From contig JANYLJ010000067.1 of assembly GCA_025357945.1 (NCBI GenBank), positions 1 to 64,000 on the forward strand: DNA of 64,000 nucleotides. Reading direction: 5' to 3'. Below the pieces are notes generated by a model that ran no database searches, was not told the origin of the DNA, and worked only from the letters and a program-made list of their open reading frames with translations. The translations under genes were made by a program, and so were the position numbers. This document shows, piece after piece, positions 14,484 to 48,553 of the stretch. This DNA is from Gemmatimonadota bacterium. Its GTDB lineage: Bacteria; Gemmatimonadota; Gemmatimonadetes; Gemmatimonadales; GWC2-71-9. Position 1 is the first letter of the stretch; every line of letters starts with the position of its first letter.

Positions 14484-14692
14484 GGCTAAAGCCGCGGCTC
14501 GGCTGATGTCGCTAAAGCGACGTCTGCTCCGTGCGTCACGTTTGCCGTCGGGAGCGCGGGAGCTTCCGGGTGACGTCGGGCCCGGTCGCCGCGCCCCCGT
14601 TGAGCCAACGTCGCTTTAGCGACATCAGCCGAGCCGTCACTGTAGTGACGAGCTCTCGCTCGCATCACCTCAACTCGCATCACCTCAACGCA
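14484..14692. repeat. Inverted repeat plus 15-bp tandem duplication between comEA-like and M28 genes
   Basis: An inverted repeat has its left arm at about 14486-14522 (CTAAAGCCGCGGCTCGGCTG then ATGTCGCTAAAGCGACGT) and right arm at about 14608-14638 (ACGTCGCTTTAGCGACATC then AGCCGAGCCG). Each arm contains its own small palindrome (GTCGCTAAAGCGAC). Right of it, CTCGCATCACCTCAA occurs twice in tandem at about 14660-14690 and overlaps the 3' end of the M28 gene. The whole fills the 277-bp gap between two minus-strand genes. It has no coding potential that I can support. Confidence 0.85.
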
Positions 14693-15597
14693 CGGCGGAT
14701 CACGGCAACGGCGGTGTTGCCCACCGCCGCCAGGCTCTGGGCCGATTCCTTGTCGGGCGTGTCCTGGGTGGTGTGCCAGTATGGGTAGCTGAGGTCAATG
14801 ACGTCGATCACCCGTATCCCGACGTCGATCAGCGGAATGTGATCATCGGTGACCGCACCGTACGACGTGCGGGTGAAGATGTGACCGTAGCCAAGCGCCG
14901 CGGCGGCACCCCACACCCGATCGACGATGTCGGGTGCGGCGATCTGCGAGTTTTGCTCCACCGGCAGCTTCAGGTTGGCGTGGCCCACCATGTCCCAGAG
15001 CACGGCGAAGAGCGGCCGGCCGGGCACGATCGGATGCGTCGCGTAATAGCTCGCGCCGATCAGCACGTCGACCCGTTTCGGCACGAACTCGCCGTAGTCC
15101 TCACCGTCGACAAAGAGCAGGTCCACGCCCACATCGGGCGGGAGCTTCTTCAGTGCGTCCGCGACGCCGAGCAACACGGCCACGCCGGAACCACCGTCGT
15201 CGGCGCCGGGAATCGGCGTGGCCTTCTGCTCCGGATCCGGATCATTCTCGGCGCGTGGGCGGGTGTCCCAGTGCGCCAGGTAGAGGACGCGCTGGGTCGC
15301 CTTGGTATTGAACTGTGCCAGCACGTTGATCATCGCGATGGAGTCGCCGGCGGCCGTGTGGTGCCACCACGTCTGCACGGTCACGCTGTCGGCGCGGGCA
15401 CGCGCCATCGAGTCGAGCCAGCGCGCCATCGCCGCGTGCCCGGGGCGGCCGGGCACCCGCGGGCCAAAGGCGACCTGCGTCACGACATAGGCGAGCGCCT
15501 GTTTGCCGTCGAATTCCTTGGCCGGCGGCGGGCCGTTGCCGGCGCCGCAGGCGGCGGCGAGGGCGGTCAGCGCGATGAGTCGAAGTCGCAGGCGCAT
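14680..15597 (-). CDS. M28-family lipoprotein, glutaminyl-peptide cyclotransferase-like
   Basis: 305-residue protein with a lipoprotein signal (LTALAAACG), so anchored at the cell surface or in the periplasm. The M28 alpha/beta zinc fold is shown by LAHWDTRP, PGADDGGSGVAVLL, FVDGEDYGE and the late His in YWHTTQDTPDK. The HWDTRP motif and length match the animal/bacterial glutaminyl cyclase branch, which converts N-terminal Gln to pyroglutamate, more than aminopeptidases. It lies next to sprA in the same direction. In T9SS bacteria of the Bacteroidetes, such cyclases modify Gln-starting exported proteins, and several proteins in this window have Gln after the signal peptide. Aminopeptidase activity cannot be excluded. 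Confidence 0.8.
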   Translation of the reverse strand: MRLRLRLIALTALAAACGAGNGPPPAKEFDGKQALAYVVTQVAFGPRVPGRPGHAAMARWLDSMARARADSVTVQTWWHHTAAGDSIAMINVLAQFNTKATQRVLYLAHWDTRPRAENDPDPEQKATPIPGADDGGSGVAVLLGVADALKKLPPDVGVDLLFVDGEDYGEFVPKRVDVLIGASYYATHPIVPGRPLFAVLWDMVGHANLKLPVEQNSQIAAPDIVDRVWGAAAALGYGHIFTRTSYGAVTDDHIPLIDVGIRVIDVIDLSYPYWHTTQDTPDKESAQSLAAVGNTAVAVIRRALR

Positions 15598-31497: not shown

Positions 31498-32811
31498 ATG
31501 ACCATGCGGCTGATCTGGCAGGACCAGGGGGACGGCAGGGCACTTTCCGAGCAACCTTGGCTCGGAGTCGGTACGATGGTGGCCGAAACGGTCGTGGAGC
31601 AGGTGGTGCAGGCGCTGGCCCGAGGCGAGGCGGTCTCTGCCATCGCGCGGGCCTATGGGATCGACCGCAAGACCGTGCGGCACTGGCGGCAGCGGGGTCG
31701 GTATGGCCCACGGACCCGCCGGCCCGTGGTGTCGTGCCTCGATCCGTATCGCGACTGGCTGACCCGCCGGGCGCCCGAAGTGGGCTATAACGCGGCGGTC
31801 CTCCACCGCGAGTTGTGCGAGCAGGGCTTCGTCGGCTCGGGGATCCTCGTCCGCCGGGCAGTCGCCCCGCTGCGGGCGACCGCCGTCCCGTCGCTGGCGA
31901 CGGTGCGCTTTGAGACCGGCCCGGGCGAGCAAGCGCAGGTCGACTTCGGCCAAGTCCGCGTCTGGATCGCCGACGTCGCGGAGGCGGCGCAGGTCTTCGT
32001 AATGACGCTGGGCTATTCGCGCCGGAGTTTTCCGGTTGCCTTTCCCCGGCAGCGGATGCGCGACTGGCTCGCCGGCCATGAGCTGGCGTTTCAGCACTTC
32101 GGCGGGGTGCCCGACACCGTCGTCATCGACAATGCGAAGGCGATGGTGCTGCGGCACACCCGCGAGACGATCCAGTGGCATCCGACCTATGCGGATTTCT
32201 GCGGCTACTATGGGGTCCGGCCGTGGGCGTGTGCGCCCTACCGGCCCCAGACGAAAGGCAAGGTGGAATCCGGCGTGAAATACGTGGCGCGCAATGCCCT
32301 CGCCGGCAAGCGGTTTCACTCCTGGACGCATCTCAATGCCTGGCTGCTCGAGTGGGCGACGACCATCGCCGATCAGCGGGAGCACGGGACCACGCACGAG
32401 ATCCCCGCCGTGCGTTTCGCGCAGGAGGCCCTCACCCCGCTCGACGGCCGGCCGGCGTAGGCCCTCGCGCATATTCGCGAACGGAAAGTCGCGACGGACG
32501 CCCTGGTCAGCATCGATGGCGCGCGCTACAGCGTCCCGGCGCAACTGGTCGGCGCGATGGTCACGGTGCGCGAGCACGCCAGCGATTTCACGATCTGGCA
32601 CCGGGACCGCGTCGTCGCCACGCATGCGCGGCACGCGCGCCACCAGGTCGTGATGCAGCCCGCGCATTACGCGGGCCTGCTCCGGGTCGACCAGACGCCG
32701 CTGGCGCAGCAGCCCCCGCAGTACGATCCGCGCTACCGCAGCACCGGCGTCGTGGAGGTCCGGGATCTCGCCGTCTATGCGCACTTTGCGACCGCGGCGT
32801 GTGGCGGATGA
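31498..32811 (+). pseudogene. istA: IS21 transposase IstA with an in-frame amber codon
   Basis: DDE transposase of IS21. The helix-turn-helix (about residues 40-65) is followed by the catalytic triad Asp149 (QVDFGQ), Asp211 (VVIDNAK) and Glu257 (KGKVESGVKY). Translation stops at a TAG at 32458-32460 (codon 321). The same frame then continues uninterrupted for 116 more codons (ALAHIRERKV onward, with SIDGARYSVPAQL, a typical IstA C-terminal domain) and ends in a TGA overlapping the istB start. A single base change, for example TAC to TAG, explains it. The truncated 320-residue product keeps the catalytic core but lacks the C-terminal domain. Confidence 0.9.
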
Positions 32812-33611
32812 CGCACGACACGATGTCCCCGGCGGTCGAGATGGAGCAGCTCGCCCAGCACTGCCAGCATCTGCGGCTGACGCGGGTGGGCCAGACGCTC
32901 TCGACGCTGCTCGAACAGGCCGCGCAGCAGGAGCTGAGTTACAGCGCGTTTCTGGCCACGGTCTTGGCGACCGAAGTCGCGGCCAAGCAGGCGAAGCACC
33001 AGACGATGCGCGAGCAGATGGCGCGCTTCCCGTTTCACAAAACGCTGGACGGCTTTGACTGGAAAGCCCAGCCGTCGATTGATCCAAAGGTCATCAAGGA
33101 GCTCGCCACCATGCGCTTCGTCGCCGACGGCGCCCATGCGCTGCTCCTCGGCCCCCCCGGGGTCGGCAAGACGCATCTCAGTGTCGCGCTGGGCCTCGAG
33201 GCGTGTCGCCTCGGCCTCCGGGTCATGTTTACGACCGCGACGGGGCTGATCACGACGCTGGGGAAGGCGCTCGACGAGAATCGGCTGGAGGAGCGCCTCA
33301 AGGTGCTGACCCAACCCAAGCTCCTGATCATCGACGAGATTGGCTACATCCCGATCGACCGGCAAGGGGCCAATCTCTTCTTTCAACTCGTCAGTCGGCG
33401 CTACGAGCGCGGCGCGATCCTGCTCACCAGCAATCAGGGGCTCGGGGCCTGGGGCGAGGTCTTTGGGGACGCCGTGATCGCCAGCGCGATCCTCGACCGG
33501 CTGCTGCACCACGCCACCACAGTCAATATCAAGGGCGATTCCTACCGGCTTCGCGAGAAGCGGAAGGCGGGGCTCGTCCGCTCGACCCTCACCGCTCAGC
33601 CTGAGCCGTGA
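32808..33611 (+). CDS. istB: IS21 helper ATPase IstB
   Basis: AAA+ ATPase of the DnaC/IstB family that selects targets and activates IstA, 267 residues. N-terminal helical domain, then Walker A LLGPPGVGKTHL (about residues 109-120), Walker B LLIIDEIGYIP and the sensor region LLTSNQGLGAWGEVF. The ATG at 32808 overlaps the istA frame's stop (ATGA). The gene looks intact. The open frame extends far upstream but that part is istA DNA in another frame. Confidence 0.95.
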   Translation: MTHDTMSPAVEMEQLAQHCQHLRLTRVGQTLSTLLEQAAQQELSYSAFLATVLATEVAAKQAKHQTMREQMARFPFHKTLDGFDWKAQPSIDPKVIKELATMRFVADGAHALLLGPPGVGKTHLSVALGLEACRLGLRVMFTTATGLITTLGKALDENRLEERLKVLTQPKLLIIDEIGYIPIDRQGANLFFQLVSRRYERGAILLTSNQGLGAWGEVFGDAVIASAILDRLLHHATTVNIKGDSYRLREKRKAGLVRSTLTAQPEP

Positions 33612-34693: not shown

Positions 34694-34729
34694 AACCGCC
34701 CCCGTCCGGATTCCCGGACGGGGGCGGTT
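34694..34729. terminator. Strong 16-bp stem-loop, likely transcription terminator
   Basis: Perfect 16-bp stem (AACCGCCCCCGTCCGG and its complement) with a 4-nt ATTC loop, 22 bases past the stop of the surface operon's last gene at 34751. Read on the minus strand, the stem is followed by TGCGCCTGCC rather than a T-run, so it may depend on structure more than on a U-tract. It closes the operon 34751-46479. Confidence 0.8.
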
Positions 34730-34750: not shown

Positions 34751-36208
34751 CTAGTGCGTCGTGACGCGGAACTGGAACCAGGTCGGTGGAACAGTGTTCG
34801 CGCCCGCCGAATAGCCAGAACCGGTACCGAAGAACTCTACTCCGAAAAAGTAAGTGCCCGCGGCCAAACCGGTGACTGTGCAGACTTCCGGCTGGCCTGA
34901 CGCACCCTGACCGCCGTTGTCGCAATTGCCGGTGAACCCGCTGCCACCCGAAACGGCGCCGGATCCAGCCACCTTGAAGCGATAGAGTCCCATGTCGGAG
35001 GCGCCCTGCCATACCAGGTTGATATCGTAGGTGGTAGAACCGGTCAGCACCACCTTGTAAACGGCGCAACCGTCACCGGTGCCACCGCCGCACTCGGAGG
35101 CGTTCGTGGAAGGTACCGTGCCGCCGGTTACCATGACGCTACCCTGGGGCCGAAGGGTGATGGCGGGTGCGGTCGCGAATACGGCTGCGGCCGGGTCCGT
35201 TGTGCCGCCAAACGCCGCACCGACGGTGAACGTCTTGCCGTCACTTGGAAGAGGCAAAGGGACGGTGTTGAGGAAGCTCAAGACGAGATTTGTGTACGTG
35301 ACAGCACCATTGCTGGCTGCCATCGGCATCACCACCGCAGTCGAACTGTCGGCAGAGACCGACTGAATGCCCGCATCTATGCCGCCGATAAGCACATGGG
35401 TCGAACCGATGAACCGGAGGCCGCCGCCAAGGGTCACCGTGACCGGCACGCCGATCAGTCCTGTAGTGGCCGATAGGGTGGTCGGAGCCACCGTCGGGCT
35501 CGGCACTGCCGCAGTGAAGGCGTTCGTCGTCGCGAGCGTCACGGGCACGATCGACGGGACCGCTTTCACGCCGACCTTGGTGACCGTCAGCACACCGACG
35601 TCGCCCGGCGCCGCAAGGAAGGTGATTGTGGAGGAATCTGCCGCTCGGGCCACGATCGCGGGGGCGGCGCCGGCGGCGAACGAGATCGCCGATGTCTGCG
35701 AGAAGACGGTCCCTGCAATTGCCGTGACCACAACCGTGTCGCCCGCAGCCGCGGTCGTCCTCGACAGCGCAGCGCCGAGGTTGAGCGGCGTCACGACCAC
35801 CGGGACAGTGACAGAGATTCCGGTGTTGACCGCGGTGGGCGTCAGGGTAAAGGTGTACCGACCCACAGCGGTACCCACGACGAAGTACTGCTGCGCCGTC
35901 TTGTCGCCGGATTGCACCAGCGTATCGAGCTTCGAGTCGAAAACCGGCCGGTAGTTGGCGTTGTTGTGGACGAGAATGCCCGCCCCCCCGCCGCCGATGG
36001 TGTAGGAGGTGATCGCACCGTTGTTGTTGTCATTCACCAACCGGGCAATCACCTCGGTTGAGTCGCCGACCTTGACCTTGACGAAAGTCGGGGTCGCCTG
36101 CACCGTGTTGTAATTGCTGTTGTTGATCGCTTCGCCAGTGTAACTGTAGCAGCCGGCAAGGGCGAGAACACCGATGAATGCGATCGTTCCAGACGCCGTG
36201 TGCTTCAT
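34751..36208 (-). CDS. Surface lipoprotein with Ig/TIG-like domains
   Basis: 485 residues. The ATG at 36206-36208 has GAGGAG upstream and opens a lipoprotein signal with a canonical lipobox (VLALAGC). The mature part is Thr/Val-rich with successive beta-sandwich repeats; the middle (VGVPVTVTLGGGLRFIGSTH region) resembles an IPT/TIG fold. The C-terminal 100 residues include a Cys-containing region (SECGGGTGDGCAVYKVVLTG) like pre-peptidase C-terminal domains. It is the last gene of the five-gene surface operon; a binding or structural role outside the outer membrane is likely. Function unknown. Confidence 0.75.
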   Translation of the reverse strand: MKHTASGTIAFIGVLALAGCYSYTGEAINNSNYNTVQATPTFVKVKVGDSTEVIARLVNDNNNGAITSYTIGGGGAGILVHNNANYRPVFDSKLDTLVQSGDKTAQQYFVVGTAVGRYTFTLTPTAVNTGISVTVPVVVTPLNLGAALSRTTAAAGDTVVVTAIAGTVFSQTSAISFAAGAAPAIVARAADSSTITFLAAPGDVGVLTVTKVGVKAVPSIVPVTLATTNAFTAAVPSPTVAPTTLSATTGLIGVPVTVTLGGGLRFIGSTHVLIGGIDAGIQSVSADSSTAVVMPMAASNGAVTYTNLVLSFLNTVPLPLPSDGKTFTVGAAFGGTTDPAAAVFATAPAITLRPQGSVMVTGGTVPSTNASECGGGTGDGCAVYKVVLTGSTTYDINLVWQGASDMGLYRFKVAGSGAVSGGSGFTGNCDNGGQGASGQPEVCTVTGLAAGTYFFGVEFFGTGSGYSAGANTVPPTWFQFRVTTH

Positions 36209-36239
36209 ACTTCGACTCCTCAGCAAGGGTTCGTCGGTC

Positions 36240-37664
36240 CTAATTGTCGTTGTTGAAATAGATCGCCGGAAAGCCGAGCCAGACGGCGATGTCCTGCGCC
36301 GCCTGCGGCGTGACCAACTCGCGCCACCCCGGCGTGCTGGGCTCCGTGACCTCGTTCGACTTGAGCAAGACGTAACTACCATTGTTGGCGCGATCGCCAA
36401 AAATGAACCAGCGGGATTTTCCGCGGGTGATCCGCCAGACCTGATAACGGACGCCACGGCCGCCCATCGTGCTGTTGAGGCTGTCATCCGGTGCGCCATA
36501 CTTGCTGTAGATCCGGCCGCGCGCGGTCTTCCATCCGGGCACAAACCGGGCACCGTAGTGCGCGTTTGCGTAACCGACCTGCGCGTAGAACTCGATCCGC
36601 GCCTCGTTGATCGGCGTGGATTTAGTCTCATCGCGCTTGGCCCAGAATTCGATCAGGAACCGGCGCTTCGCCGCGAGCGAAAGCTCATCTCGCTTGTACG
36701 CTGCCCGCTCGCGTGCCGTGGCGTTTGGCAGCAGCACGAGCACTTCGGCGGCTGCGTCGAGCGAATCCTCCGGCAACGAATTGAAGTAGACCTCATCCAA
36801 TCCCTTGTTGGCGTTGGTCTCGGTCACGTTCCGCGCTAGCGCGACGTCGGCCCGGTTGACCGCGAACGGTGCTTCCCGCTCGACCGTCTGGCCCTTGATC
36901 GTCAGCGCCGCCTTCAGGATGTACTGGCCGGCCGGGAGGCCCTCGAGCGAGAACTGGTTGGCGATAATACCGCCGCCCGCCGGAAGACCCTTTTCGGTGG
37001 GCATCAGCGGGACCAGATCCCGGCCGTCCGCCGCGGCGACCTTGAGTGCCAAGGTGGCTGTCGTGGCATCCGGGGTATACGCCTCCATCAGGAAGCCCAT
37101 CTGCGGCCGCGTAAGGTCGATATGCAGCGTCGGCGCGGTGACGAATCGAAAATTGCCGCGGGCCAGTTCGCCCGCGTCAGTGGTCGTGTCGCCCGCGGGC
37201 GCCGCTCGCAGCTCGCTGGCGAGGAGCAGGTCGGAGGCACCGGGCGAAACGCCGTATCCATCGAAACGAATGCTGTCCTTCACCGTTCGCAGGGTGGTGG
37301 AGTCAACGACCTCGACCTCGAGCCAGTACTTGCCGGGCACGACGCCAAAGTTGAGTGTCTCCATACCGGACGCGTTTTCGGAGCGCATGGCGGCCGGAGC
37401 GTGGCGATACCACTGTTCCCCGTTGAGCACGCCACCCTTTTCGTCACGCACCCGGATGACGACCAGGTACGAAATGAAGGCGGCCGGTCCGACCCCAACC
37501 GGCGTCGCGATCGCATAGGGCACTTCGACCGTGGCGATGACGCTGGTTTTTTTCACTTCCGGGAGCCAGAAGCGCACCGCGCGCATCTGGATGCCGCCAG
37601 CTCCCGTCTGGGCGATCGCATGGCTGGCCAGAGTAGCCGCAGCAACGACGGCAGCGATCAGCAT
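36240..37664 (-). CDS. Secreted GWxTD-domain protein
   Basis: 474 residues. GGAGG lies 7 bases before the ATG at 37662-37664, and a signal peptide (MLIAAVVAAATLASHAIA) precedes Gln-Thr, so the in-frame upstream start is not used. The N-terminal two thirds are beta-rich. The last 130 residues match the GWxTD domain found in FCB-group bacteria: FLIEFWAKRDETKSTPINEA, then YANAHYG, then PGWKTARGRIYSKYGAPDD. The role of the domain is unknown. It lies between porV and the TIG lipoprotein in one operon. Confidence 0.85.
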   Translation of the reverse strand: MLIAAVVAAATLASHAIAQTGAGGIQMRAVRFWLPEVKKTSVIATVEVPYAIATPVGVGPAAFISYLVVIRVRDEKGGVLNGEQWYRHAPAAMRSENASGMETLNFGVVPGKYWLEVEVVDSTTLRTVKDSIRFDGYGVSPGASDLLLASELRAAPAGDTTTDAGELARGNFRFVTAPTLHIDLTRPQMGFLMEAYTPDATTATLALKVAAADGRDLVPLMPTEKGLPAGGGIIANQFSLEGLPAGQYILKAALTIKGQTVEREAPFAVNRADVALARNVTETNANKGLDEVYFNSLPEDSLDAAAEVLVLLPNATARERAAYKRDELSLAAKRRFLIEFWAKRDETKSTPINEARIEFYAQVGYANAHYGARFVPGWKTARGRIYSKYGAPDDSLNSTMGGRGVRYQVWRITRGKSRWFIFGDRANNGSYVLLKSNEVTEPSTPGWRELVTPQAAQDIAVWLGFPAIYFNNDN

Positions 37665-37729
37665 CGCGCTACCTCCGTGTTGCAGGCTACCTTGGCCGTC
37701 CAACGCGAACGTTGTTGCATGTTATTCCG

Positions 37730-38893
37730 TTACCAACCAAGTGTGACGGTGTAGAAATCGGTGTCGCCGAGGTTGCCCATGCGACGCCGGGCGTAATCGA
37801 AGCCAAGTGAGAAGCCGCTCCTGCTGCTGGCGAGCCAGATCCCGCCACCGTAGGCCAGGCCGGCTTGTGAATCCTTGCCCTTGCTGTAGCCGCAGCCGGG
37901 CGTGGTACAGTTGGCATCCACGAAGCCGGTGTTGCTGTAACTGAGCGACGGATTGTAGGTGTAGGACCCGCGCAGGGCGACGCCGAAGCCCGAACCGCCG
38001 ATGTGGTCAGCGGCGAACTCGCCGCCGCCGCCGAAAGCGGTGCGGTTGGAACTCATCTGGTTGAACTCACCCATGATGGTGAACTTGGCGTCCTTGGCCG
38101 AAACGACGTCGTACGCCAACGCGACGCGGAAGATCGTTGGCAGGTGGAAGTCCGACGTCAGGTACGCCACCGGCACGCCGAGCGAGGTGACTGTGGTCTG
38201 GCCCGCGAGGGTGTCCCTGGTCGCGGACCGGGCGATCGACTGACTGAGACCATCTTGTCCGTAACTCATGTTGGTGCCAAGGTTGAGCAGCGAGAACGCG
38301 AACCGGACTGCCTTGCCACCCAGAGACGAGTGGAAGTGGGTGCCGAAGTCGAGCGCAAACGCGCTGCCGCTGACGTCGCCCAGGTGGTCGGTGATTCCCT
38401 TGGCGGTCACGCCGACCGCGAACCGGTCCGAGAAGTTCTTCGCCAGCGTGGCGGCGATGAATGTTTCGGTGACCGAGTAGAAGGCGCCGGTACCTTCCGG
38501 CTGGGTCGCCGTGTACACCGGCTGGTCGGAGAACCCGAAGGTGCCGATCTGGAAGCCGATGACGCTCGAGCCGCCGCCGAACGGAATCGCGACCGCACCC
38601 CAGTTGAACTTGGTGCCGGCCACGTACTGCAACTGCGAGCCCTGGATGACCGGGCGCTTGAGCAGTGCCACAGCTCCGGGGTTGGCATTGAGGCCGCCGA
38701 TATCCGTGGCCACGGCGGAATACGATCCGCCGAGCGCCATGCCGCGGGCATTCGCGCCCAGCAGCAGGAATTCAGCCGCAGTGGTGCCGTACCCGGTGTT
38801 GTCGTTTCCGGTGGCGGATTGCGCCGGGGCGATCGCTGGAACCAGCAGCAGCGTACCGACCGTCGCGACCTTCAGAACAGAGAACCGAATCAT
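37730..38893 (-). CDS. PorV/PorQ-family outer-membrane beta-barrel protein
   Basis: 387 residues, FadL-like barrel of the UPF0164/PorV group. A signal peptide ends AIAPA followed by Gln-Ser. The family motif region AAEFLLLGANARGMALGGSY (residues 40-59) with the following ATDIGGLNANPGAV is characteristic. PorV shuttles T9SS cargo from the SprA translocon to the attachment complex by binding the cargo's C-terminal domain. The gene is directly downstream of a large protein with such a domain (38963-43009), which suggests a dedicated carrier. It ends with an aromatic-terminated strand (FYTVTLGW), typical of barrels. Confidence 0.85.
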   Translation of the reverse strand: MIRFSVLKVATVGTLLLVPAIAPAQSATGNDNTGYGTTAAEFLLLGANARGMALGGSYSAVATDIGGLNANPGAVALLKRPVIQGSQLQYVAGTKFNWGAVAIPFGGGSSVIGFQIGTFGFSDQPVYTATQPEGTGAFYSVTETFIAATLAKNFSDRFAVGVTAKGITDHLGDVSGSAFALDFGTHFHSSLGGKAVRFAFSLLNLGTNMSYGQDGLSQSIARSATRDTLAGQTTVTSLGVPVAYLTSDFHLPTIFRVALAYDVVSAKDAKFTIMGEFNQMSSNRTAFGGGGEFAADHIGGSGFGVALRGSYTYNPSLSYSNTGFVDANCTTPGCGYSKGKDSQAGLAYGGGIWLASSRSGFSLGFDYARRRMGNLGDTDFYTVTLGW

Positions 38894-38962
38894 CTGGTTT
38901 GTCTCCTTCGGTCCCGGCGGCCGCTCTCGCGGCGCGCCGGGCCTGGTGTAGATCGTGAGGCG

Positions 38963-41900
38963 TTACTGGACGGTGCTGGCATAGTTGACGATCGTCATGC
39001 GGCCGGTGCGGCTGATGCCGTCGGCTTCCACATTGTAGAAGTACACGCCGCTCGCGACGAACTGGTTCGTGCGGTTACGCACATTCCAGTGGACGATGCC
39101 GCCAAACGTTGTGGTAGTGTTCTGCAACACCCGGATCAGGACGCCGCTCGACGAGTAGATCCGGATGATCGCACCCGTCGGAACATGCACGAACTGGATG
39201 TCTTTCGCGTTCACAGCAATGTCGTACGCACTGGTGACGTAGTACGGATCCGGTACCGTGTGCACTCTGGCCAATGAGTCGGGCGTCGTGGCGATGAGCG
39301 CGTTCGCCACAGTGAACTTGAACTGCACCTGCGTACCCGACGTGGTCGCGGGCCGGAGCGCCGACACGAATTGGTAGGCGCCGAGATTGCCGCCCGGGCC
39401 GTTGCCGCCGTAAACGCTGCCAGTGTAGTCGCGCATGGTCCAGACCGTTCCCGCCGCGGGCAACGCGCCGCCTCGCAACTCGAACAGGAAGATCCGGCCG
39501 TGGAGGTAGATGCCGAAGCCGTTGTTCGGTTCCGCCGCGACGGTCTTGAGATTTCCAACAGCGCCGAACCCGATCGCGATCGGTCCAGGTACGGCCGTGT
39601 TGACCAGCGGTACCTGGGGACCTGGGCACGTCGGGCCGCCGGTCGCGAACTGCTTGATCCCGCCGACACAGGAGAAGTCGGCGACGGTGAATTCGGCCCG
39701 CCCGTCGAAGCCACCGGCCGGCGTGACTGAATTGGAGTTGAGAATCCCCCAGCTGCTGCCTATCGTGGTCTTGAACGGCACCAGTTGATCGTGGGTGACG
39801 TCGATAACGGAATCGACCTTGCCCGCAGTACCCCAGTAGAGTTTGTAGTCCGCCGCCGTAATGAACGGTGAGATCACAAATTCGACGTTCCGCCAGTTTG
39901 TGCCAGATCCGAACCATCCGTAGCCGTTGGGGCTGTTGGCGTAGACCACCCCGGGCAGTGAGCCGGCGTTGCCGTAGACCGTCGTCGTCCCGGTACCACT
40001 AAAGGCCAACGGGCTCGAAGTCGTCGGGTTCGCCGTGCTCTCGTTGGTTCCGGAGAACCAGCGGGCACCGTTGTAGTAGCAACTGCCCCCCGTAACGCCG
40101 TTGCCGTTGACGTCGCTGCCACCGGGTACGCCGTTCGCACAGCCGCGGCCCTGGACACCCTGTACCGATGCATCGTTGTGGGTGACGCTGTAGGCTGCCG
40201 CAATGGTATAACCGGAAGCGGCCGCAAGCCCACCGGCGAACCGCGCCGCCAAGGTCGAGTCGACCGCGAACGCCGTGAAATTGCCGTTACCGGTACTTGT
40301 CGCTGCAGAAACCTGGTTGATCGTGAACGGAATCGTGACGTGGGTGGTACCGGTAGAGTTGGTCAGGGAGTAATAGTCGGTCTGGGCCAACGAGTTGTTC
40401 GGGTCAAGCGAATTGACCACGATCGAGTCGAACGTCAGACCGACCGCCCCGCTCCCGTTGAGCAGCGCCGGGGCAAAACCGGCGAGTGCAAGGGTGGCAG
40501 CGTTGGTCGGCGGGAACGCCTTGCTGAATTCGCCGGTAGTGGCGTCGAGCGCCGGCACGACGACGTCAGTCAGCAAGCCCTTCCTGCCAAAGACACCACT
40601 GGAAGTTGAGTTGGCGTTGCTGAAGTTCACCGCCGTCGCCTGTGGCGTCACCTGCTTGGTGACGCGAGCCGACTCCAGCGACGTCGGCCCGTGGCCCGGT
40701 GCATTCACGTCGAACGCGGTGACAGAATAGTAGTAGTTGGCGCCGTTGTTCGGGCCGCAGCCGGTGCACCCCGTCGCGCCAGCCACGTCGATGAAGATGA
40801 AGGGTACGCCGTTGTCCTTGAGCGCCGGAAAGCCTGACCCGCCCCCCGAGACGACGGTGTCAACCACACTCGCGAACGACGTGGCGCCACCGAGGAGTGC
40901 CAACCGCGTTCCGCCCGTCTGGTCGACGAACTGGAGTGGTGAAACATCAGCCTGTGGACCGATGTTGTAGCTGGCGAACCGGGTCGCCGCGGTTTGCGGC
41001 GGCGTCGGGTTGCTCGGCGTCGGGAAGCCGCCCGCCGGCGTGGTTTCTGGGCAGTCGGTCAGCACGCCGACTTCCGGCGCACAATTGCCGTTGACCACAA
41101 AGCCGGTGAAGTCCTTGATCCTGGTGCCGGCGTAGTCGAACTGCACCAGCAGCTTGAGCGCGCTTGGGCTATCGCTACGGCCACGGTAGATCCGGTAGCC
41201 CTCGACGTCGAACTGGCGATAGTTCGGATCGTAGAGCGGATTGGCGATCGTCAACCCGGTAGACGAGACCGCGGTTGGACTCTTGACGATCTGGAAGTAC
41301 GGGTCGCCGATCGTTTCGGTGGCCGATGGCTTCCAGAGGATGGTGACCTGCTTGTCGCCCGGGATCAGGAAGAACTGCGGCGCGTCGGGCGCGAACTCCT
41401 GGAGAAACTTCACATCGAACACGGCCTGGGCCACGAGTGCCTTGCCGAGCAGGGATCCTTTCACCACCGAGAACTCCGACTGCACCGGCTGGTGCACCGA
41501 GCCATCATTGTTGAAGTGCGGGCCGTTGTACTTGACAAACCCGGAGATGGAGTCGATCAGGTTCAGGCCCGGCGAGCCGCTCGCGTTGTACTTGAACATC
41601 GAGTCGGTGGAGTTGCTCCATGTAACGTTGCCCGGGTCATGAGCCGCGGTGGTGGGCACGAAGCCGGGGACTGCCACCGGTGCGGCAAAGACGAAGGCGA
41701 CGACGATCGATTTCGCCTGGCCGGGTGCCAGCGTCAGCGGCGTCGACGACTCCGTCATGCGGGTGTCGGCGCCGGTCGCGCCCAGGAGCATGAAGCAGAC
41801 GTGGATGTCGGCCGCCGTCTTGCCCGGTGCGGTGACGTTGCACTGGCCATCGGTCGCCGCCGGCGTACCGGCGAGGAGGCGATAGTTGATGATCATGCTG

Positions 41901-43009
41901 CCCGGATCGCTGTGGCCGGCGCCGCAGACGGCGACCCCGTTGCAGAAGGTGGAGTACAGCTGGATCGCACCCGGGCCGTCGGGGCCCTTGAGGTACTTGT
42001 AGCCGACGAAACCGACGCCGGCGAAGAACGGCGGGCCGAAGATGGCCGGATCGAACTTCCAGCCCGGGTCGGTGTTGCCGAATTGCGCTTCGTACGTGTA
42101 GCCCATCGCGAACGGCAAGTTGACGCCGTTCATGTTCGAGCCGGCGTTACCGACGTCGTTGTCGCCGGCCACGGCCATGAAGGTGTTGATAACGGAATAG
42201 CCGCCGGCCGGCAGCGCGATACCGAACTTGGCGTTATTGAGCGACTGGAACTTCTGGCCTTGCTGGCACAGGATGGTCCTGATGCCGGGCCGGTGTGCTG
42301 CGTAGTCGCCACAATTGGCCGAGGTCACGTTGTAGACCGTGGCGACCAGGAAGACGATGTCCTGGGCGCCGGCCGGATAGTTCCACGCGAGCAGGCGGTA
42401 GTCGACCAGGATGCCGAGCGGGTGCAGGCGGCCGACGTTGAACGCCGGGTTGCCTTCCCACGAGATGAAATGCACGTCGCCCTGCGAGGCGGCGACCAGC
42501 CCCTGCAGCGGTTTGGCGTACAGGTTGGCGACGTCGTCGCCCTGCGGCACGAAGGCGTCCGCCGGCCAGTTGGCAGCGTCGGCGGCGTTGAATGACCGCC
42601 ACGCCTGAGTGACGCCTTCGGTCTCCACCCGGCCGCCGGATCCGTCGAAGAACCAGCCGCCCGCCGTGTCGCCGCCCCACGGATTGGCCGGCGACTTGAC
42701 GCCCGCGACAACACCGGCCACCTGCAGACCGGCGTTGAATATGTATTGGTCAGGGGTGCCACGCGGCCAGAAACCACCGCCATTGTTCGTGGCGCCGCCG
42801 GAGTCAACCCCGACTTCACCTTGCGAGTTGACGCCCATGAATACGCGGTTGACGTTGATGTAGCTGATGGCCCTGGCGAAGAGCTTGTAGGTGTTCCTCG
42901 TCACCGGGAACGCTGGCCGCGCCGTCGCCGGCCGCGGCATGAATCCGATCATGAAGGCAGCCAGGCCGAGCCCGGCCAGGACGTTCCGCATACTACGCAA
43001 TGCGTGCAT
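38963..43009 (-). CDS. Giant secreted protein with T9SS-like C-terminal sorting domain
   Basis: 1348 residues. The ATG at 43007-43009 is preceded by GAGGA; a second ATG six codons on is possible. A signal peptide ends near RPATA, here not followed by Gln. The body is beta-rich with many Asn/Gly/Thr, including a fibronectin/Ig-like central part. The last 80 residues (GAIIRIYSSSGVLIRVLQNT, HWNVRNRTNQFVASGVYFY, RTGRMTIV) have the pattern of the type A T9SS sorting domain. Likely exported by SprA and displayed on the surface. It sits between the TonB receptor and PorV. Function of the body unknown. Confidence 0.8.
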   Translation of the reverse strand: MHALRSMRNVLAGLGLAAFMIGFMPRPATARPAFPVTRNTYKLFARAISYINVNRVFMGVNSQGEVGVDSGGATNNGGGFWPRGTPDQYIFNAGLQVAGVVAGVKSPANPWGGDTAGGWFFDGSGGRVETEGVTQAWRSFNAADAANWPADAFVPQGDDVANLYAKPLQGLVAASQGDVHFISWEGNPAFNVGRLHPLGILVDYRLLAWNYPAGAQDIVFLVATVYNVTSANCGDYAAHRPGIRTILCQQGQKFQSLNNAKFGIALPAGGYSVINTFMAVAGDNDVGNAGSNMNGVNLPFAMGYTYEAQFGNTDPGWKFDPAIFGPPFFAGVGFVGYKYLKGPDGPGAIQLYSTFCNGVAVCGAGHSDPGSMIINYRLLAGTPAATDGQCNVTAPGKTAADIHVCFMLLGATGADTRMTESSTPLTLAPGQAKSIVVAFVFAAPVAVPGFVPTTAAHDPGNVTWSNSTDSMFKYNASGSPGLNLIDSISGFVKYNGPHFNNDGSVHQPVQSEFSVVKGSLLGKALVAQAVFDVKFLQEFAPDAPQFFLIPGDKQVTILWKPSATETIGDPYFQIVKSPTAVSSTGLTIANPLYDPNYRQFDVEGYRIYRGRSDSPSALKLLVQFDYAGTRIKDFTGFVVNGNCAPEVGVLTDCPETTPAGGFPTPSNPTPPQTAATRFASYNIGPQADVSPLQFVDQTGGTRLALLGGATSFASVVDTVVSGGGSGFPALKDNGVPFIFIDVAGATGCTGCGPNNGANYYYSVTAFDVNAPGHGPTSLESARVTKQVTPQATAVNFSNANSTSSGVFGRKGLLTDVVVPALDATTGEFSKAFPPTNAATLALAGFAPALLNGSGAVGLTFDSIVVNSLDPNNSLAQTDYYSLTNSTGTTHVTIPFTINQVSAATSTGNGNFTAFAVDSTLAARFAGGLAAASGYTIAAAYSVTHNDASVQGVQGRGCANGVPGGSDVNGNGVTGGSCYYNGARWFSGTNESTANPTTSSPLAFSGTGTTTVYGNAGSLPGVVYANSPNGYGWFGSGTNWRNVEFVISPFITAADYKLYWGTAGKVDSVIDVTHDQLVPFKTTIGSSWGILNSNSVTPAGGFDGRAEFTVADFSCVGGIKQFATGGPTCPGPQVPLVNTAVPGPIAIGFGAVGNLKTVAAEPNNGFGIYLHGRIFLFELRGGALPAAGTVWTMRDYTGSVYGGNGPGGNLGAYQFVSALRPATTSGTQVQFKFTVANALIATTPDSLARVHTVPDPYYVTSAYDIAVNAKDIQFVHVPTGAIIRIYSSSGVLIRVLQNTTTTFGGIVHWNVRNRTNQFVASGVYFYNVEADGISRTGRMTIVNYASTVQ

Positions 43010-43083
43010 TGAGAATTCCTCGGGTCGAAATAGTCGTCCGGAAGCTGGCGGCGGCCAATGCCACCGCCACTTCCGGGCCGGGG

Positions 43084-46000
43084 TCAGAAGTTCACTTCAA
43101 GGCCAAACCGGACCGTGCGAGCGCCGATGTTACGCGCCCAGATGCTGTTTGCGAACGAGTTCTTGGAATCCGAGGCGACCCGCTGCTCCTTGAGGGTGTA
43201 GACACCGTCCCCGTCGCCGAAGCGCTGTTCGGAACGAATCATGTAGTAACACGCCGCTGCGTACGAGTTGGTGCTGGCGATGACCTTGGCGCAGCCGGCG
43301 ATGGTCGTCGGCAGCGTGATCGCCCCGGTCGTCTTGTTGTATTCGTTCGTGGCTTTGCCATACTCTACGAACGTCGACGAGTCGGTCGAGTAACGCAGGT
43401 CCGACGCTAGACCGCTGGAAATGGAGCCGGTCTGCGCGTACACGGTGGCGATATTCTGCAGGTTCAGCACGTTGCGCGCGTCCACCGCGGCGGTGAACTG
43501 GTAACGGCCGATCCGGAAGTCCTTGGTCAGGCGCAGGTCGAACTGCTTCTGCATCGGCAGGCGCGCAGCATTGAAATTGGTCACCGCGCCGAGAAGACCG
43601 CAGCTGCCAGCTTGGCCTTGCCCCGCGATGACGCCGATCGAGCCCGGATCCGCCGGATCGCAGCGCGTGTAGGCCTGGCCCGAGGCAATACGCGCCGTCA
43701 CGTAGAAGCCGGTGCGCTTGAGGATCGTGCCCAGGATCGACCCCTTCTCCCAGTCGGCCGGGAGTTGGAAATTGAACAGCGCAGTCAGCGAGTGTGGCCG
43801 CGAGAGGGCGGTGGTCAACGCCGCCGTCGGCGGATCGCCGACGAAGCCCGCGATCGGCTCGAAGAAGCCGAGGTACGCGAACGGGTCGGTGCCGGTGTTC
43901 TTCGAGTCCTGGAAGGAGTAGGACAGCGACCCGTTGAAGTAGTTGCCGATGCGGCGGTCCAGCCGCACGTCCACGCCACGGGTGTTGCCGAAGTCCCGGT
44001 TGGTCACCAGGTACAGAATGTTCCGCTGGCCGGTGGCCGGATCGATCGGGTGTTCGAACCCGAACGACGGGTTGGCAACGATGTCGTTGTTGTACACCGC
44101 CACGTCGAGCACCATGTCGTCGCTGAACGCGTGCCGCGCCCCGAACTCGAAGGTGATCGTCTTGCCGAAGTCGAGGTCGTTGCCCCACCGTCCGCGCAGG
44201 TTCTGGCCGCTGACGTTGTAGTCGAACAGCGACGCAGCATAGCTCAGGCCGAAGTCCGGCGCCTGCACGTTCTGCGCGTAGGAGAGACGGAAGTTGGTCT
44301 TGTCGGTCACCGGGAACGAGACCTGCACGTGCGGTGACACGTAATTATGCGACGGATCCTGCAGCAGGGCGCACTTCGCCGTGGGACTCGGCGTGGTGCC
44401 GACCGGGCAGAAGAGCGAGTCCGGCGTAAAGCCCGGGCGGCTCGAGATCTCCGGGAAATTATTCCAGCGCCACGCCTTGGTCCAGTAGTAGTCGTAGCGC
44501 ATACCGGCCACGAGCACCACGTCGCCCAGGTCGAGACGGTCCTCGGCGTAGGCGTTGTAGGCAACCGGCTTGCCGCCCGCACTGAGGTGGCCGTTCTCGT
44601 AGGTGATCGGGAAGACCGGTGCGCCGGTGTTGCTGGAACCGTAGTTCAGGATATCGTACTTGGTAAACTGGCCACCAACCTTGAGCCGGTTGTAACGGTC
44701 GGCCTGGAAGTCGATGTTGGCGATGCCGACCCAGTGATTCTCGAAGTTGTACGCGAGGCGGTTGTCGTCACCGCCACCACCGCCCGCCGAGTACCCCACG
44801 CCGTCCGGCGCTTGGCCGCGGCTGGACTGGTCAGCAAAGCTGGCCACACCATTGTACTGCGCCGTGTTCCTCGGATCGGTGATGCCGATGCGGTTGTTCG
44901 CGGCAGCGGTCAGGATGTGGTAAATGAGCGCCGAGTCAACCGGATATGTGGTCTGGTCATACCGGAACTTGAGCTTCTGCAGGAGGAAGCCCCCCGGTGA
45001 CCCACGCGTCGCCTGCTCCGAGGCGGCGGTCAGCGGCGCGGTGATGCTGTTGTTCCACTGGCGCGAGATGTAAGCATCGAGCGTCAGCTGGTGGTTCGCC
45101 TGCTTGATCAGCGTCTGGTTCCAGTTGAGCGTCGCGACGTTGGCACCGGTGATGTTGCCGACGTTGCTGCCGTCGGCAAGTACGCCACGGTTCTGGTTGC
45201 CGCTGAACAGGTAGATGAGCGAGAGACGCGAGCCCTGACCGAAGGAGAAGTTCAGCTTGTCGGTCGTGAAATAGTTGGTGTTCGGCGCGGCGTAGGCCTG
45301 GTTGGCGTGACACTTGACGCCGTAGTTGGCGGCCATCGCCGTGTTGTTGGCACCGATGAAGCCGCCCTGACTGCTCGGCAGGTCACAGCCGCCTTGCGTG
45401 ACGGCGTAGTTGTACACGTTGACCGCGATGCTGTCCACCACCGCTGCCGTACCGGCCTTGGGCGAGTTCGCCACCGTGAACGTGGTATCGAGGCTCACTC
45501 GCGAATAGCTCGGGTACAGCCAGCCGTGGTTGCCGCCGTTGGTCGAGTTGAAGCCCTCGACGCCGGCGGAGGCGAAGAAGGTCAGGTGCTTCCCGATCGG
45601 GCCGCTGACGGAAGCGTGGAACGTGTTATACCCCTGCCCGTAGTAGGCCAGGCCGAACAAGCCGGTCTCGCCGCCGATGTTGCCGACGAACTTGTTGCCG
45701 CCGCTCTTGGTCGCGATGTTGATGATACCGCCCTGGGCATTACCGAAGGACGCCGACGAGGCGCCAGTGGTGATCGACGCCTCTTCGAAGCCGTTCGGCC
45801 CCACCGTCAGCTGGGGCGCGCCGGTCACCGAGCTGTTGCCGTTGACCGTTCCCTGGCCGGTGTGAATCCCGTTCTGGACCGGGACGCCGTCGATGTAGGT
45901 GGCGTTCTGGTCGACGCGCCCGCCACGCACCGAGATCAGCGGGTTGCACGGCAGATTGGTGCCGCAGATGCCGACCTGCACGATGCCCGGCTGCAACGCC

Positions 46001-46479
46001 AGCGCCTGGGCAATCCGGTCGATCGGCAGCTTGCCCACCATGTCGCCGGTGATCGACTGCTTGGTGGTGACCATGTCGTAGGGCACCAGCGGGTTCTTCG
46101 CGGCGGTCACCACGAGTTCGTTCAGGGTGATCGGCGACGATTCGAGCATGAAGTCCTCGAGCATCGTTTGTCCGCCCTGGACGCGCAGCCCGGCGAGCTC
46201 GTGCGGCTTGTAGCCGACGTACGTCGCTCGCACCGAGACCGTCCCGGCTGGGACGTTCTCGATGAAGTAGTAGCCGCGGGCATCCGAGGTGGCACTGTAC
46301 GACGTCCCCGGAATGATCACGGTCGCGTTCGCGATCGGCTGCTGCGTCGCGGCGTCGCGAATGTATCCCTGGATCTTGCCGGTCGACTGCGCGCTCAGCG
46401 CCGACACACCGGTAGTGGTGGCAACCGCGGCGAGGATCAATAGCACGCGGGCCAGAACTCTCAAACAACGCTGCGTCAT
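43084..46479 (-). CDS. TonB-dependent receptor with carboxypeptidase-regulatory-like domain
   Basis: Outer-membrane active transporter, 1131 residues. Signal peptide ends SALSA followed by Gln-Ser. A carboxypeptidase-regulatory-like domain (about 33-115, GKIQGYIRDAATQQPIANAT) precedes the plug (about 120-260; ISVRGGRVDQNATYIDGVPV) and a 22-strand barrel ending with Phe (VRFGLEVNF). It is of the SusC/RagA-like or Oar-like type. The ATG at 46479 follows GGAGGA. It is the first gene of the surface operon; no SusD-like gene follows, and its place is taken by the giant sorting-domain protein. Substrate unknown. Confidence 0.92.
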   Translation of the reverse strand: MTQRCLRVLARVLLILAAVATTTGVSALSAQSTGKIQGYIRDAATQQPIANATVIIPGTSYSATSDARGYYFIENVPAGTVSVRATYVGYKPHELAGLRVQGGQTMLEDFMLESSPITLNELVVTAAKNPLVPYDMVTTKQSITGDMVGKLPIDRIAQALALQPGIVQVGICGTNLPCNPLISVRGGRVDQNATYIDGVPVQNGIHTGQGTVNGNSSVTGAPQLTVGPNGFEEASITTGASSASFGNAQGGIINIATKSGGNKFVGNIGGETGLFGLAYYGQGYNTFHASVSGPIGKHLTFFASAGVEGFNSTNGGNHGWLYPSYSRVSLDTTFTVANSPKAGTAAVVDSIAVNVYNYAVTQGGCDLPSSQGGFIGANNTAMAANYGVKCHANQAYAAPNTNYFTTDKLNFSFGQGSRLSLIYLFSGNQNRGVLADGSNVGNITGANVATLNWNQTLIKQANHQLTLDAYISRQWNNSITAPLTAASEQATRGSPGGFLLQKLKFRYDQTTYPVDSALIYHILTAAANNRIGITDPRNTAQYNGVASFADQSSRGQAPDGVGYSAGGGGGDDNRLAYNFENHWVGIANIDFQADRYNRLKVGGQFTKYDILNYGSSNTGAPVFPITYENGHLSAGGKPVAYNAYAEDRLDLGDVVLVAGMRYDYYWTKAWRWNNFPEISSRPGFTPDSLFCPVGTTPSPTAKCALLQDPSHNYVSPHVQVSFPVTDKTNFRLSYAQNVQAPDFGLSYAASLFDYNVSGQNLRGRWGNDLDFGKTITFEFGARHAFSDDMVLDVAVYNNDIVANPSFGFEHPIDPATGQRNILYLVTNRDFGNTRGVDVRLDRRIGNYFNGSLSYSFQDSKNTGTDPFAYLGFFEPIAGFVGDPPTAALTTALSRPHSLTALFNFQLPADWEKGSILGTILKRTGFYVTARIASGQAYTRCDPADPGSIGVIAGQGQAGSCGLLGAVTNFNAARLPMQKQFDLRLTKDFRIGRYQFTAAVDARNVLNLQNIATVYAQTGSISSGLASDLRYSTDSSTFVEYGKATNEYNKTTGAITLPTTIAGCAKVIASTNSYAAACYYMIRSEQRFGDGDGVYTLKEQRVASDSKNSFANSIWARNIGARTVRFGLEVNF

Positions 46480-46706
46480 AAGAAATCGTCCTCCGAAGGC
46501 GTAAACACTGGGGTGCGGCGTTCCTTCGTTTCGGTCACCGCCGAAGCTGTGCGGGGACCGACTCCTGCAAAGTTCCGCGGCAGCGGAACGACAACGGCAT
46601 CACTGCGACGTACACTGACGGTCGCGCATCATGGAGCGTGCGAGGTGGCTCGGAAGATCGGTAGTTTTTCGGGTTGCCGAGAATATGTCGGTCTCCCGAA
46701 GAAGTG
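46480..46706. other. Leader region of the surface operon
   Basis: This 227-bp gap lies between the surface operon start and the stop of the upstream minus-strand M24 gene. It must hold the operon promoter. The GGAGGA ribosome-binding site is at about 46488-46494. I see no confident sigma boxes, riboswitch or repeat; a TTTTTCGGG stretch near 46665 could belong to a terminator of the M24 gene but has no clean stem. Confidence 0.4.
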
Positions 46707-47882
46707 TCAAGTTATGGTCACGAGCGAGATTTGGGGGGTTCGGGGGGTCACCACGATACCCTGGTTTCCCCAGTACAGATTGACCTCGCTGCGCACCCCG
46801 AACTCACCCGGCAGGTAAATCCCGGGCTCCACGGAGCAGCCGGTCCCCGGCTGGAGCGCCCGGTCGTCGTGGGTCTCGTAGTCGTCGAGATGCGGCCCCG
46901 ACCCGTGCAGGTCGCGGTCGATGCTGTGGCCGGTACGATGCACGAAAAACTCGCCAAATCCGGCCCGCTCGATCACCCCACGCGCCGCCTGATCGCCGAG
47001 GTAGCCGAGCACCGGCTCGCCCGCCGCCACCAGGCTCCGGAGCGCGTCAATGGCGGCGTCGCGCGCGTCGCGGACGGTCTGCCACACCGCGGCAACCCGC
47101 GCCGGGACTGAGCTTCCCGAGAATCCCATCCAGGTCTGGTCGGCAAAGACCGCCCCGGCATGCATCCCGGCAAAGAGGTCAAGGAGTACCACTTCATCGG
47201 GGCCGAGGGTCCGGTCGGCGCCAGGGTGCGGCTCGTAATGGGGAATGGCTGCGTTCGGCCCGAAACCGACGATCGGCCCATGGTCCAGGAACATCCCCGC
47301 CCGCTCGATCGCCGCTACCACCTCGGCCTTCATGGCCGACTCGGTGTAGCCGGTGTTGGCCAGCCGCACCGCCCGCTCCAGTGCCGCCAGCGCGATTTCC
47401 CGCAGCAGCTCGGCCGCCTGGACGTGCTCGGCCGTTTCGGCGGCGGTCCAGCTGGCGGCAAACCGGGTGACCAACCCAGCACTCGACACCACCGTGACGC
47501 CGAGCGACTGGAGCAGGTCGATCACCCCCCACGGGATCCGATCGAGGTAGGGCACCGCGTCACGCGCCGAGATCTCCATGGCGGCGGTCTTGCCGGCAAG
47601 GGTGGTCCGCAAAGCCTCGTGCAACTCGGCGTGACGCGAGTACGGGATGATGTTGCCCTGAAATCCGTCGAACGGCTGCATCTCGATCCGGTGGACGATC
47701 GCCGTCATGGCGCCCTGCCGGGGCACCCATACGAACAGGCGACGGGTCCCCATGCCACCCGGCAGGATTCGCTGAGCCACCGGATTGCAGCCGTGAAAGT
47801 CGAACAGCAACCAACCGTCGGCGCCGAGCTGCTCCAGCATTCGGGCCACTTGCTCACGATCGAGTTCCGCTAATGCCGTCAT
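46707..47882 (-). CDS. M24-family metallopeptidase (Xaa-Pro aminopeptidase-like)
   Basis: Cytoplasmic pita-bread-fold peptidase, 391 residues. An N-terminal creatinase-type domain is followed by the catalytic part with metal ligands in VVLLDLFAGMHAGAVFADQT (both Asp), the His in VHRTGHSID, and the Glu residues in SVEPGIY and VRSEVNLYW. The ATG at 47880-47882 is preceded by GGAGG and overlaps the stop of the upstream gene (ATGA), so the two are coupled. It likely releases the N-terminal residue before proline. Confidence 0.9.
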   Translation of the reverse strand: MTALAELDREQVARMLEQLGADGWLLFDFHGCNPVAQRILPGGMGTRRLFVWVPRQGAMTAIVHRIEMQPFDGFQGNIIPYSRHAELHEALRTTLAGKTAAMEISARDAVPYLDRIPWGVIDLLQSLGVTVVSSAGLVTRFAASWTAAETAEHVQAAELLREIALAALERAVRLANTGYTESAMKAEVVAAIERAGMFLDHGPIVGFGPNAAIPHYEPHPGADRTLGPDEVVLLDLFAGMHAGAVFADQTWMGFSGSSVPARVAAVWQTVRDARDAAIDALRSLVAAGEPVLGYLGDQAARGVIERAGFGEFFVHRTGHSIDRDLHGSGPHLDDYETHDDRALQPGTGCSVEPGIYLPGEFGVRSEVNLYWGNQGIVVTPRTPQISLVTIT

Positions 47883-48502
47883 TCCAGAGCCTCCGTTCGC
47901 ATCGCGCGCCACAGGCAGTGGCGATCGCCGCGGCCAATACAGGTTTCGTGGGTCACGCTCCACTCCAGGTCGCCGACTTGCCGGAGCAGCTCCGCGAACG
48001 CCGTCGCATAGAACTGACACCCGGCGCCGTCGTCCCGGGCGCGCAGGCCGAGCGAGTCGTCCATCGCGCAGCGGAGGCTACCCTCCGACACCGCCAGGTC
48101 GGCCAACAACCATCGCTCCGCCAGGCGTGACGTCGCCCGGAGCGCCAAGGCAACCGCGGCACGGCCGGGGGCCGCCGCGATCGCCGCGCGACGGACGACG
48201 CCCAGTCGTCTTGCCGCGTAGCGGGCGGCGCGGCGACCCGCGTCGGCATAGACCAGAACAGCGTCCGGTCGACGGCCGACCAGGCGGAAGACGGCAACCG
48301 CTTCCTCGTCGGCCACGGTCGACCCGCCGCTCGCCCGCTCGCGGTACCGAGCCACCTGGGCGGCGACGGTGGGCGACAGCCCCAGCCGCTTGGCGGCCAA
48401 CTCGTCGGCGAGAGCGCCGAGCCCGTCATCCGGCGGGGTATCGATGTTCTGGACGGCTTCAAGGAGCGCGAGCGGGATGAGCGCAGGGACGGCAGGGGAC
48501 AT
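47879..48502 (-). CDS. V4R-like domain protein of unknown function
   Basis: 207 residues. The C-terminal 60 residues (CQFYATAFAELLRQVGD then ETCIGRGDRHCLWR) look like the V4R small-molecule binding domain, whose end has a Cys-x5-6-Cys pair of the type CIxxGDxxC. The N-terminal half is Ala/Arg/Leu-rich and may be helical (VAAQVARYRERASGG). No catalytic residues are evident. Its stop overlaps the M24 peptidase start. It is divergent from the ECF sigma gene with a gap of about 50 bp, so the two probably share regulatory DNA. Confidence 0.5.
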   Translation of the reverse strand: MSPAVPALIPLALLEAVQNIDTPPDDGLGALADELAAKRLGLSPTVAAQVARYRERASGGSTVADEEAVAVFRLVGRRPDAVLVYADAGRRAARYAARRLGVVRRAAIAAAPGRAAVALALRATSRLAERWLLADLAVSEGSLRCAMDDSLGLRARDDGAGCQFYATAFAELLRQVGDLEWSVTHETCIGRGDRHCLWRAMRTEALE

Positions 48503-48553
48503 GAACCGGAGAAACTAACAGCAAGAGACAAGAGAGTGGTCTTACTTTGCTGC

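Follow-up and report, generated by a model that had tools for sequence, protein, structure and literature searches.

A candidate receptor-cargo-carrier cassette of a sortase-free type IX secretion branch in Gemmatimonadota

A Gemmatimonadota genome (G000; 3.01 Mb, listed as 99.8% complete) carries on contig C45, within the 64,000-nucleotide stretch analysed here (the window), an operon that is best read as part of a dedicated, sortase-free branch of the type IX secretion system (T9SS), in which each cargo comes with a co-encoded PorV that exports it and probably holds it beside a TonB receptor. The operon would thus be a cassette for one T9SS cargo, here called BIG, and a TonB-dependent receptor (TBDR), with BIG sitting on PorV at the cell surface and assisting ligand capture by the receptor in a SusD-like role, a reading to which we assign a probability of about 0.5. 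Most descriptions of the T9SS concern Bacteroidota and feature a single general PorV, a sortase and tens of cargos; SusC/SusD are well-known nutrient importers.

The operon (34751-46479) consists of five consecutive ORFs, all on the minus strand, which encode the TBDR, BIG, a PorV/PorQ-family protein, a GWxTD-domain protein and a lipoprotein-like protein (Table 1). An earlier note on this DNA had described five same-direction genes with short gaps and a strong hairpin at the end, and each of these features was recovered. The intergenic gaps are 26-74 bp long (TBDR-BIG 74, BIG-PorV 69, PorV-GWxTD 26 and GWxTD-lipoprotein 31 bp; the third becomes 65 bp if the fourth gene starts at its likely ATG), and GGAGG-like ribosome-binding sites lie 5' of the operon genes, including one GGAGG before this ATG. 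The 71 nt around the hairpin have a folding energy of -51.2 kcal/mol (z = -7.0), though the hairpin fails the criteria of an intrinsic-terminator scan because just three T, and no long T run, follow it. A 227-bp gap between the TBDR and the upstream M24 peptidase gene contains a TTGACA-17-CATATT site, the one minus-strand promoter-like site upstream of the receptor, which is suggestive at most since such sites are as frequent in the region as they are on average in shuffled sequence, i.e., at chance level. The operon is likely transcribed as a single unit. The M24 peptidase gene (46707-48020) and a divergent gene for an ECF-type sigma factor (48536-49108) keep their places in many relatives of the family, and these neighbours possibly include a regulator of the operon. 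As well, an IS21-type element (IstA/IstB, 31498-33611), which separates the operon from the sprA block, had no match in the relatives' loci that were read around the operon.

Table 1. Genes, domains and signals of the operon and related features in the window
Feature	Position	Strand	Basis or remark
TonB-dependent receptor (TBDR), 1131 aa, first gene of the operon	43084..46479	-	CarbopepD_reg and Plug over cut-off
BIG, 1348-aa secreted cargo	38963..43009	-	Sequence alignment, AlphaFold2 model
BIG C-terminal sorting domain, residues 1240-1348	38966..39292	-	TIGR04183 and PDB profile matches
PorV/PorQ-family outer-membrane protein	37730..38893	-	NF033709 1e-27
GWxTD-domain protein, fourth gene	36240..37703 (likely ATG start 37664)	-	TIGR04514 1.1e-18
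Lipoprotein-like fifth gene, 485 aa	34751..36208	-	Outside the conserved core
32-nt hairpin 3' of the last gene, probable transcript end	34696..34727	-	Folding z -7.0
Promoter-like TTGACA-17-CATATT, upstream side of the receptor	46682..46710	-	Promoter scan, suggestive
SprA/Sov, T9SS outer-membrane translocon, about 2057 aa	15598..21771	-	TIGR04189 2.9e-128
M28-type glutamine cyclotransferase, possible accessory	14680..15597	-	Peptidase_M28 8.9e-30

The receptor possesses an N-terminal CarbopepD_reg domain (1.7e-17) and a Plug domain (1.2e-7), both over the Pfam cut-off, which is the domain pair sought in the receptor of a SusC-SusD system. BIG, which matched no Pfam family, comprises an N-terminal signal-like sequence, a beta-rich N-terminal region, a middle part that is FnIII-like by eye, and a C-terminal T9SS domain (CTD). 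Its C-terminus matched TIGR04183 (Por_Secre_tail) weakly in a whole-protein hmmscan (0.0073, 16.3 bits, below the cut-off) and reached 23.1 bits in the genome search, just above the curated cut-off of 23. An alignment profile of the CTD found PorU (6za2, 0.0025) and PorZ (5m11, 0.0045) as the best PDB matches, followed at far weaker scores by flagellar FlgD, and on the genome search and these profile matches BIG has the C-terminal sorting domain of a T9SS cargo. T9SS export of BIG is well supported by inference. The AlphaFold2 model of residues 28-800 is fair (pLDDT 80, pTM 0.84), and a PDB fold search with it returned partial, low-TM matches (target-normalised TM up to about 0.48, TMq about 0.2), among them the GH94/GH116 beta-supersandwich and the YidC periplasmic domain, which are too weak to be more than a hint and were not adopted as the fold. 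A profile search of PDB sequences with the N-terminal region gave nothing useful, and no sequence relation between BIG and SusD was seen.

The protein encoded by the third gene matched the PorV/PorQ family model NF033709 with 97.6 bits (cut-off 90) and stayed below the threshold of the PorV equivalog NF033710 (31 of 250 bits). Its alignment profile, searched against all PDB sequences, found solely the Flavobacterium PorV structure (F. johnsoniae, 6h3i, 1.7e-14), and no PorP/SprF-family carrier was found in the operon, the carrier being of the PorV/PorQ family. Taken with the PorU and PorZ matches of the CTD profile, the PDB result fits the earlier proposal that PorV escorts the giant protein. 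A profile search of the genome detected no other PorV-family protein. An [AVSG]xA|Q site was present in the signal peptide region of 15 of 20 PorV relatives, and was far rarer in the TBDR, BIG and GWxTD sets; the Bacteroidetes Q-rule has been reported not to hold generally across the FCB group (PMC5837995).

The fourth protein matched TIGR04514 and PF20094, each over the cut-off, while its own motif reads GWKTA instead of GWxTD. According to AlphaFold2 (pLDDT 90), it consists of two beta (Ig-like) domains and a helical-beta C-terminal GWxTD domain. Its PDB fold matches, from which no function can be read, were limited to tandem Ig/FnIII parts (e.g., RbmA, TMq about 0.2); a profile search of PDB sequences gave nothing useful, and the word GWxTD occurs in none of the open-licence papers searched. 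A second GWxTD-domain protein of this genome (L127, contig C5, about 47.3-48.7 kb, 453 aa, TIGR04514 1.2e-23) lies away from any trio. The fifth protein starts with MKHTASG...LALAGC, a plausible lipobox, and its earlier description as TIG-like was not borne out, since Pfam gave a sub-threshold PPC match alone and no TIG match.

The translocon gene sprA lies in the same window, about 13 kb beyond the operon end, and its product matched TIGR04189 with 429 bits (cut-off 200) as well as SprA_N (6.9e-13). The suggestion that the operon is self-contained is thus not supported, because this translocon would be needed. In several relatives (G012, G030, G044, G154 and G036), sprA is likewise found about 10-25 kb from the operon. 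SprA was found in 144 of the 200 genomes of the phylum, including all 51 BIG-positive genomes compared with 93 of the 149 others (Fisher 3e-9), and within the family in 22/22 BIG-positive genomes compared with 9/21 others (p = 2e-5). Four members of the same family (G002, G013, G015 and G022) are SprA-positive without BIG and have only divergent PorV-like proteins, located elsewhere in the genome. The glutamine cyclotransferase gene directly follows sprA, and its product matched cyclotransferase structures at about 1e-50. T9SS has been stated to possibly occur in Gemmatimonadetes (PMC11285876), so its presence there is not new as such.

One SprA, one PorV-family protein and, by two independent profiles (BIG-CTD and TIGR04183), one CTD protein (BIG) were detected in this genome, a count limited by profile sensitivity, as more divergent cargos could be missed, and the export machine appears to serve BIG as its sole cargo. 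The PorU sortase (peptidase C25, PF01364) had no match in this genome, and among the 200 genomes it gave strong matches in six, all of another class, and three weak ones in the class of this genome, such absence calls depending on profile sensitivity and on the completeness of the metagenome-assembled genomes (MAGs). At two loci of the other class (L107 and L128, in G001 and G003), PorU has a smaller PorV-like gene next to it and a GWxTD-type ORF no more than a few kb away, an arrangement separate from the trios. GldL/GldM (PorL/PorM) were matched in no genome tried, including those outside the phylum, and since no positive control was matched either, their absence was dropped as proof of a missing motor.

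Previous studies showed that the CTD leaves SprA together with PorV, bound to the PorV loops (PMC10994853). Type A cargos share one general PorV before their release or their attachment to LPS (PMC12635249); type B cargos use dedicated carriers and remain bound at the surface (PMC9143113; PMC12635249), and most type B substrates adjoin their own carrier gene (PMC12618676). The published mechanism and the gene set together lead us to infer that this PorV serves BIG alone and anchors it next to the receptor of the same operon. As predicted from sequence, Sec would take BIG to the periplasm, and the co-encoded PorV-family protein would take its CTD from the SprA channel and export it. BIG would most likely remain on PorV at the cell surface, permanently anchored, because no PorU peptidase was detected that would cut the CTD off. 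Its ectodomain, in contact with the co-encoded TBDR, could then aid ligand capture for uptake, as SusD does for SusC. The ligand may be a glycan or another polymer fragment, the glycan being a guess given the weak fold matches of BIG, and the GWxTD protein may be a Gemmatimonadota accessory to some step.

The search for BIG covered 200 genomes of the phylum and matched 51; a genome counts as BIG-positive if it has BIG or a BIG-like CTD, some of the 51 resting on the CTD alone. In the 20 of these 51 neighbourhoods that were read, the sequence and orientation of TBDR-BIG-PorV-GWxTD were conserved, as far as the contigs extend, throughout the same family, order and class; the order's second family also has the trio, but GWxTD is not directly 3' of it. 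Homologues of the fifth gene follow GWxTD only at L033, L034 and L036 (the genus) and partly at L040 (a nearby genus), and the five-gene unit was ruled out as a conserved object, its lipoprotein being lineage-specific.

A one-genome-per-species scan was seeded with BIG, and its best 80 loci were typed with profiles built here, so that the counts are not frequencies. TBDR-BIG-PorV occurred in this order in 45 of the best 80 loci, with GWxTD next in 18 and most others cut by contig ends. Where both flanks were complete, BIG was accompanied by both TBDR and PorV in 39 of 44 loci among these 80 (TBDR 40/44, PorV 40/44), two of the trio loci having the order TBDR-PorV-BIG. By group, again among the best 80 and with phylum names taken from the MAG records, both partners were found in Gemmatimonadota 15/15, Balneolaceae 5/5, Neomarinimicrobiota 5/6, WOR-3 4/6 (4/7 with Stahlbacteria), Ignavibacteriota 3/3, KSB1 2/2, Calditrichota 1, Krumholzibacteriota 1 and three loci with no phylum assigned, so that trio adjacency spans at least eight phylum-level groups. 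GWxTD as the fourth gene was seen in Gemmatimonadota and at one Krumholzibacteriota locus. At three WOR-3/Stahlbacteria loci (L181, L182 and L205), BIG-like proteins have no detectable same-strand PorV neighbour, L181 retaining the receptor, and the carrier there is possibly diverged or distant. The expectation that the five families would be neighbours elsewhere thus held broadly for the trio, in Gemmatimonadota and one Krumholzibacteriota locus for four genes, and not for the fifth. The conserved core, by gene content and order, is the TBDR-BIG-PorV trio, to which GWxTD is added mainly in Gemmatimonadota and the lipoprotein only in close relatives.

Multiple copies of the trio are present in G001, a genome of another class with 25 PorV-family matches and 17 strong BIG-type CTDs, nearly all of which lie in TBDR-BIG-PorV sets (about 17 trios). 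Pairwise divergence was correlated between the partners of 12 close trios (TBDR-PorV r 0.71, TBDR-BIG 0.53, BIG-PorV 0.39), to which this mirror-tree test was limited because three outlying trios dominated the fuller set. The correlation suggests that trios travel as units, although simple co-duplication would also produce it and could alone explain it. Median identity among these 12 trios falls from the CTD (0.74) through PorV (0.64) and the receptor (0.57) to the BIG ectodomain (0.43), and a conserved CTD with a diverging ectodomain would fit one export signal with varied surface parts.

No SusD family was found among the five operon proteins, and the single SusD match of this genome is on contig C62, away from the operon, indicating that the cassette is not a strict replacement for SusD. 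No SusD match was found in G001 or in another expanded genome, the two richest in PorV; G001, with about 17 trios, is consistent with a TBDR that pairs with BIG rather than with a SusD-like protein. Partnership with the receptor is suggested by the conserved adjacency, the co-divergence and the lack of a SusD match in these two genomes. Like SusC-SusD, the cassette pairs a CarbopepD_reg receptor with a large surface partner and can occur as many paralogous sets per genome, whereas its partner is a T9SS cargo with its own outer-membrane carrier instead of a SusD lipoprotein.

With the type A T9SS (SprA/Sov, PorV, PorU), it shares SprA above cut-off, a PorV-family protein and a cargo CTD related to those of PorU and PorZ, but its PorV gene shares the cargo operon with a receptor gene, a single cargo is detectable in this genome, PorU was not detected, and neither were GldL/GldM, for which a positive control was lacking. 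A carrier gene adjoining the cargo gene is also found in the type B T9SS (SprB-SprF, with PorP/SprF-like carriers), and cargo staying on its carrier may be shared by analogy; however, here the carrier belongs to the PorV/PorQ family and the CTD to the Por_Secre_tail kind, and the set almost always includes a TonB receptor. Attachment components are also missing from the Sphingobacteriia T9SS without PorU, PorQ and PorZ, for which it was suggested that cargo may stay on PorV where a lineage lacks PorU, while the part of that paper considered here does not describe a receptor-cargo-PorV cassette (PMC7323717).

BIG could instead be a T9SS-exported surface adhesin or coat protein, with the receptor co-regulated or co-inherited and outside any complex. 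A large, beta-rich protein with an FnIII-like middle would suit such a role, and type B substrates likewise mostly adjoin their own carrier gene (PMC12618676). However, loss or replacement of an unrelated neighbour would be expected over such a range of phyla, while the receptor is kept as tightly as PorV (each at 40/44 loci among the best 80) and co-diverges with both, which makes this explanation rather unlikely. The cassette reading has its own difficulties, namely the one SusD-like protein elsewhere in this genome and the SprA-positive relatives without BIG; moreover, another protease could release BIG. In that scenario, PorV would export BIG, some protease would remove the CTD, and a soluble haemophore-like scavenger would return ligand to the receptor. 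PorV-borne type A cargo of Bacteroidota is indeed released or LPS-attached (PMC12635249), and PorV may hold the CTD more loosely outside SprA (PMC10994853). No PorU-type peptidase was detected, however, and a separate carrier for each cargo points to lasting, not catalytic, use of PorV, so we regard the scavenger as more doubtful still.

It is highly improbable that the TonB-energised receptor powers or gates BIG export in place of the GldLM motor. TonB systems are known for import, and empty GldL/GldM searches in every genome tried do not establish an absence, although the receptor constantly accompanies cargo and carrier and the motor proteins went unmatched in this genome in searches that had no working positive control.

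The earlier note knew of no characterised system with this composition, and the open-licence literature that was searched agrees: in it, neither a receptor-cargo-PorV cassette nor a one-cargo, PorU-less T9SS was found described. Automatic annotation already labels the single proteins, and the cassette looks like an undescribed alternative to SusC/SusD. More tentatively, it may represent a third TonB-dependent import architecture across the FCB group, in which the partner is a T9SS cargo held by its own PorV, and whose Gemmatimonadota version would use a stripped-down, sortase-free and maybe single-cargo T9SS. Genomes that have a single translocon, a single carrier and a single detectable cargo, and that lack PorU, offer a minimal T9SS provided by nature. 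Its conserved association with a TonB receptor suggests a coupling of surface display to nutrient import in phyla that may have few or no SusCD systems, and the cassette offers testable partners for many proteins annotated merely as 'TonB-dependent receptor', 'sorting domain protein' or 'PorV/PorQ family'.
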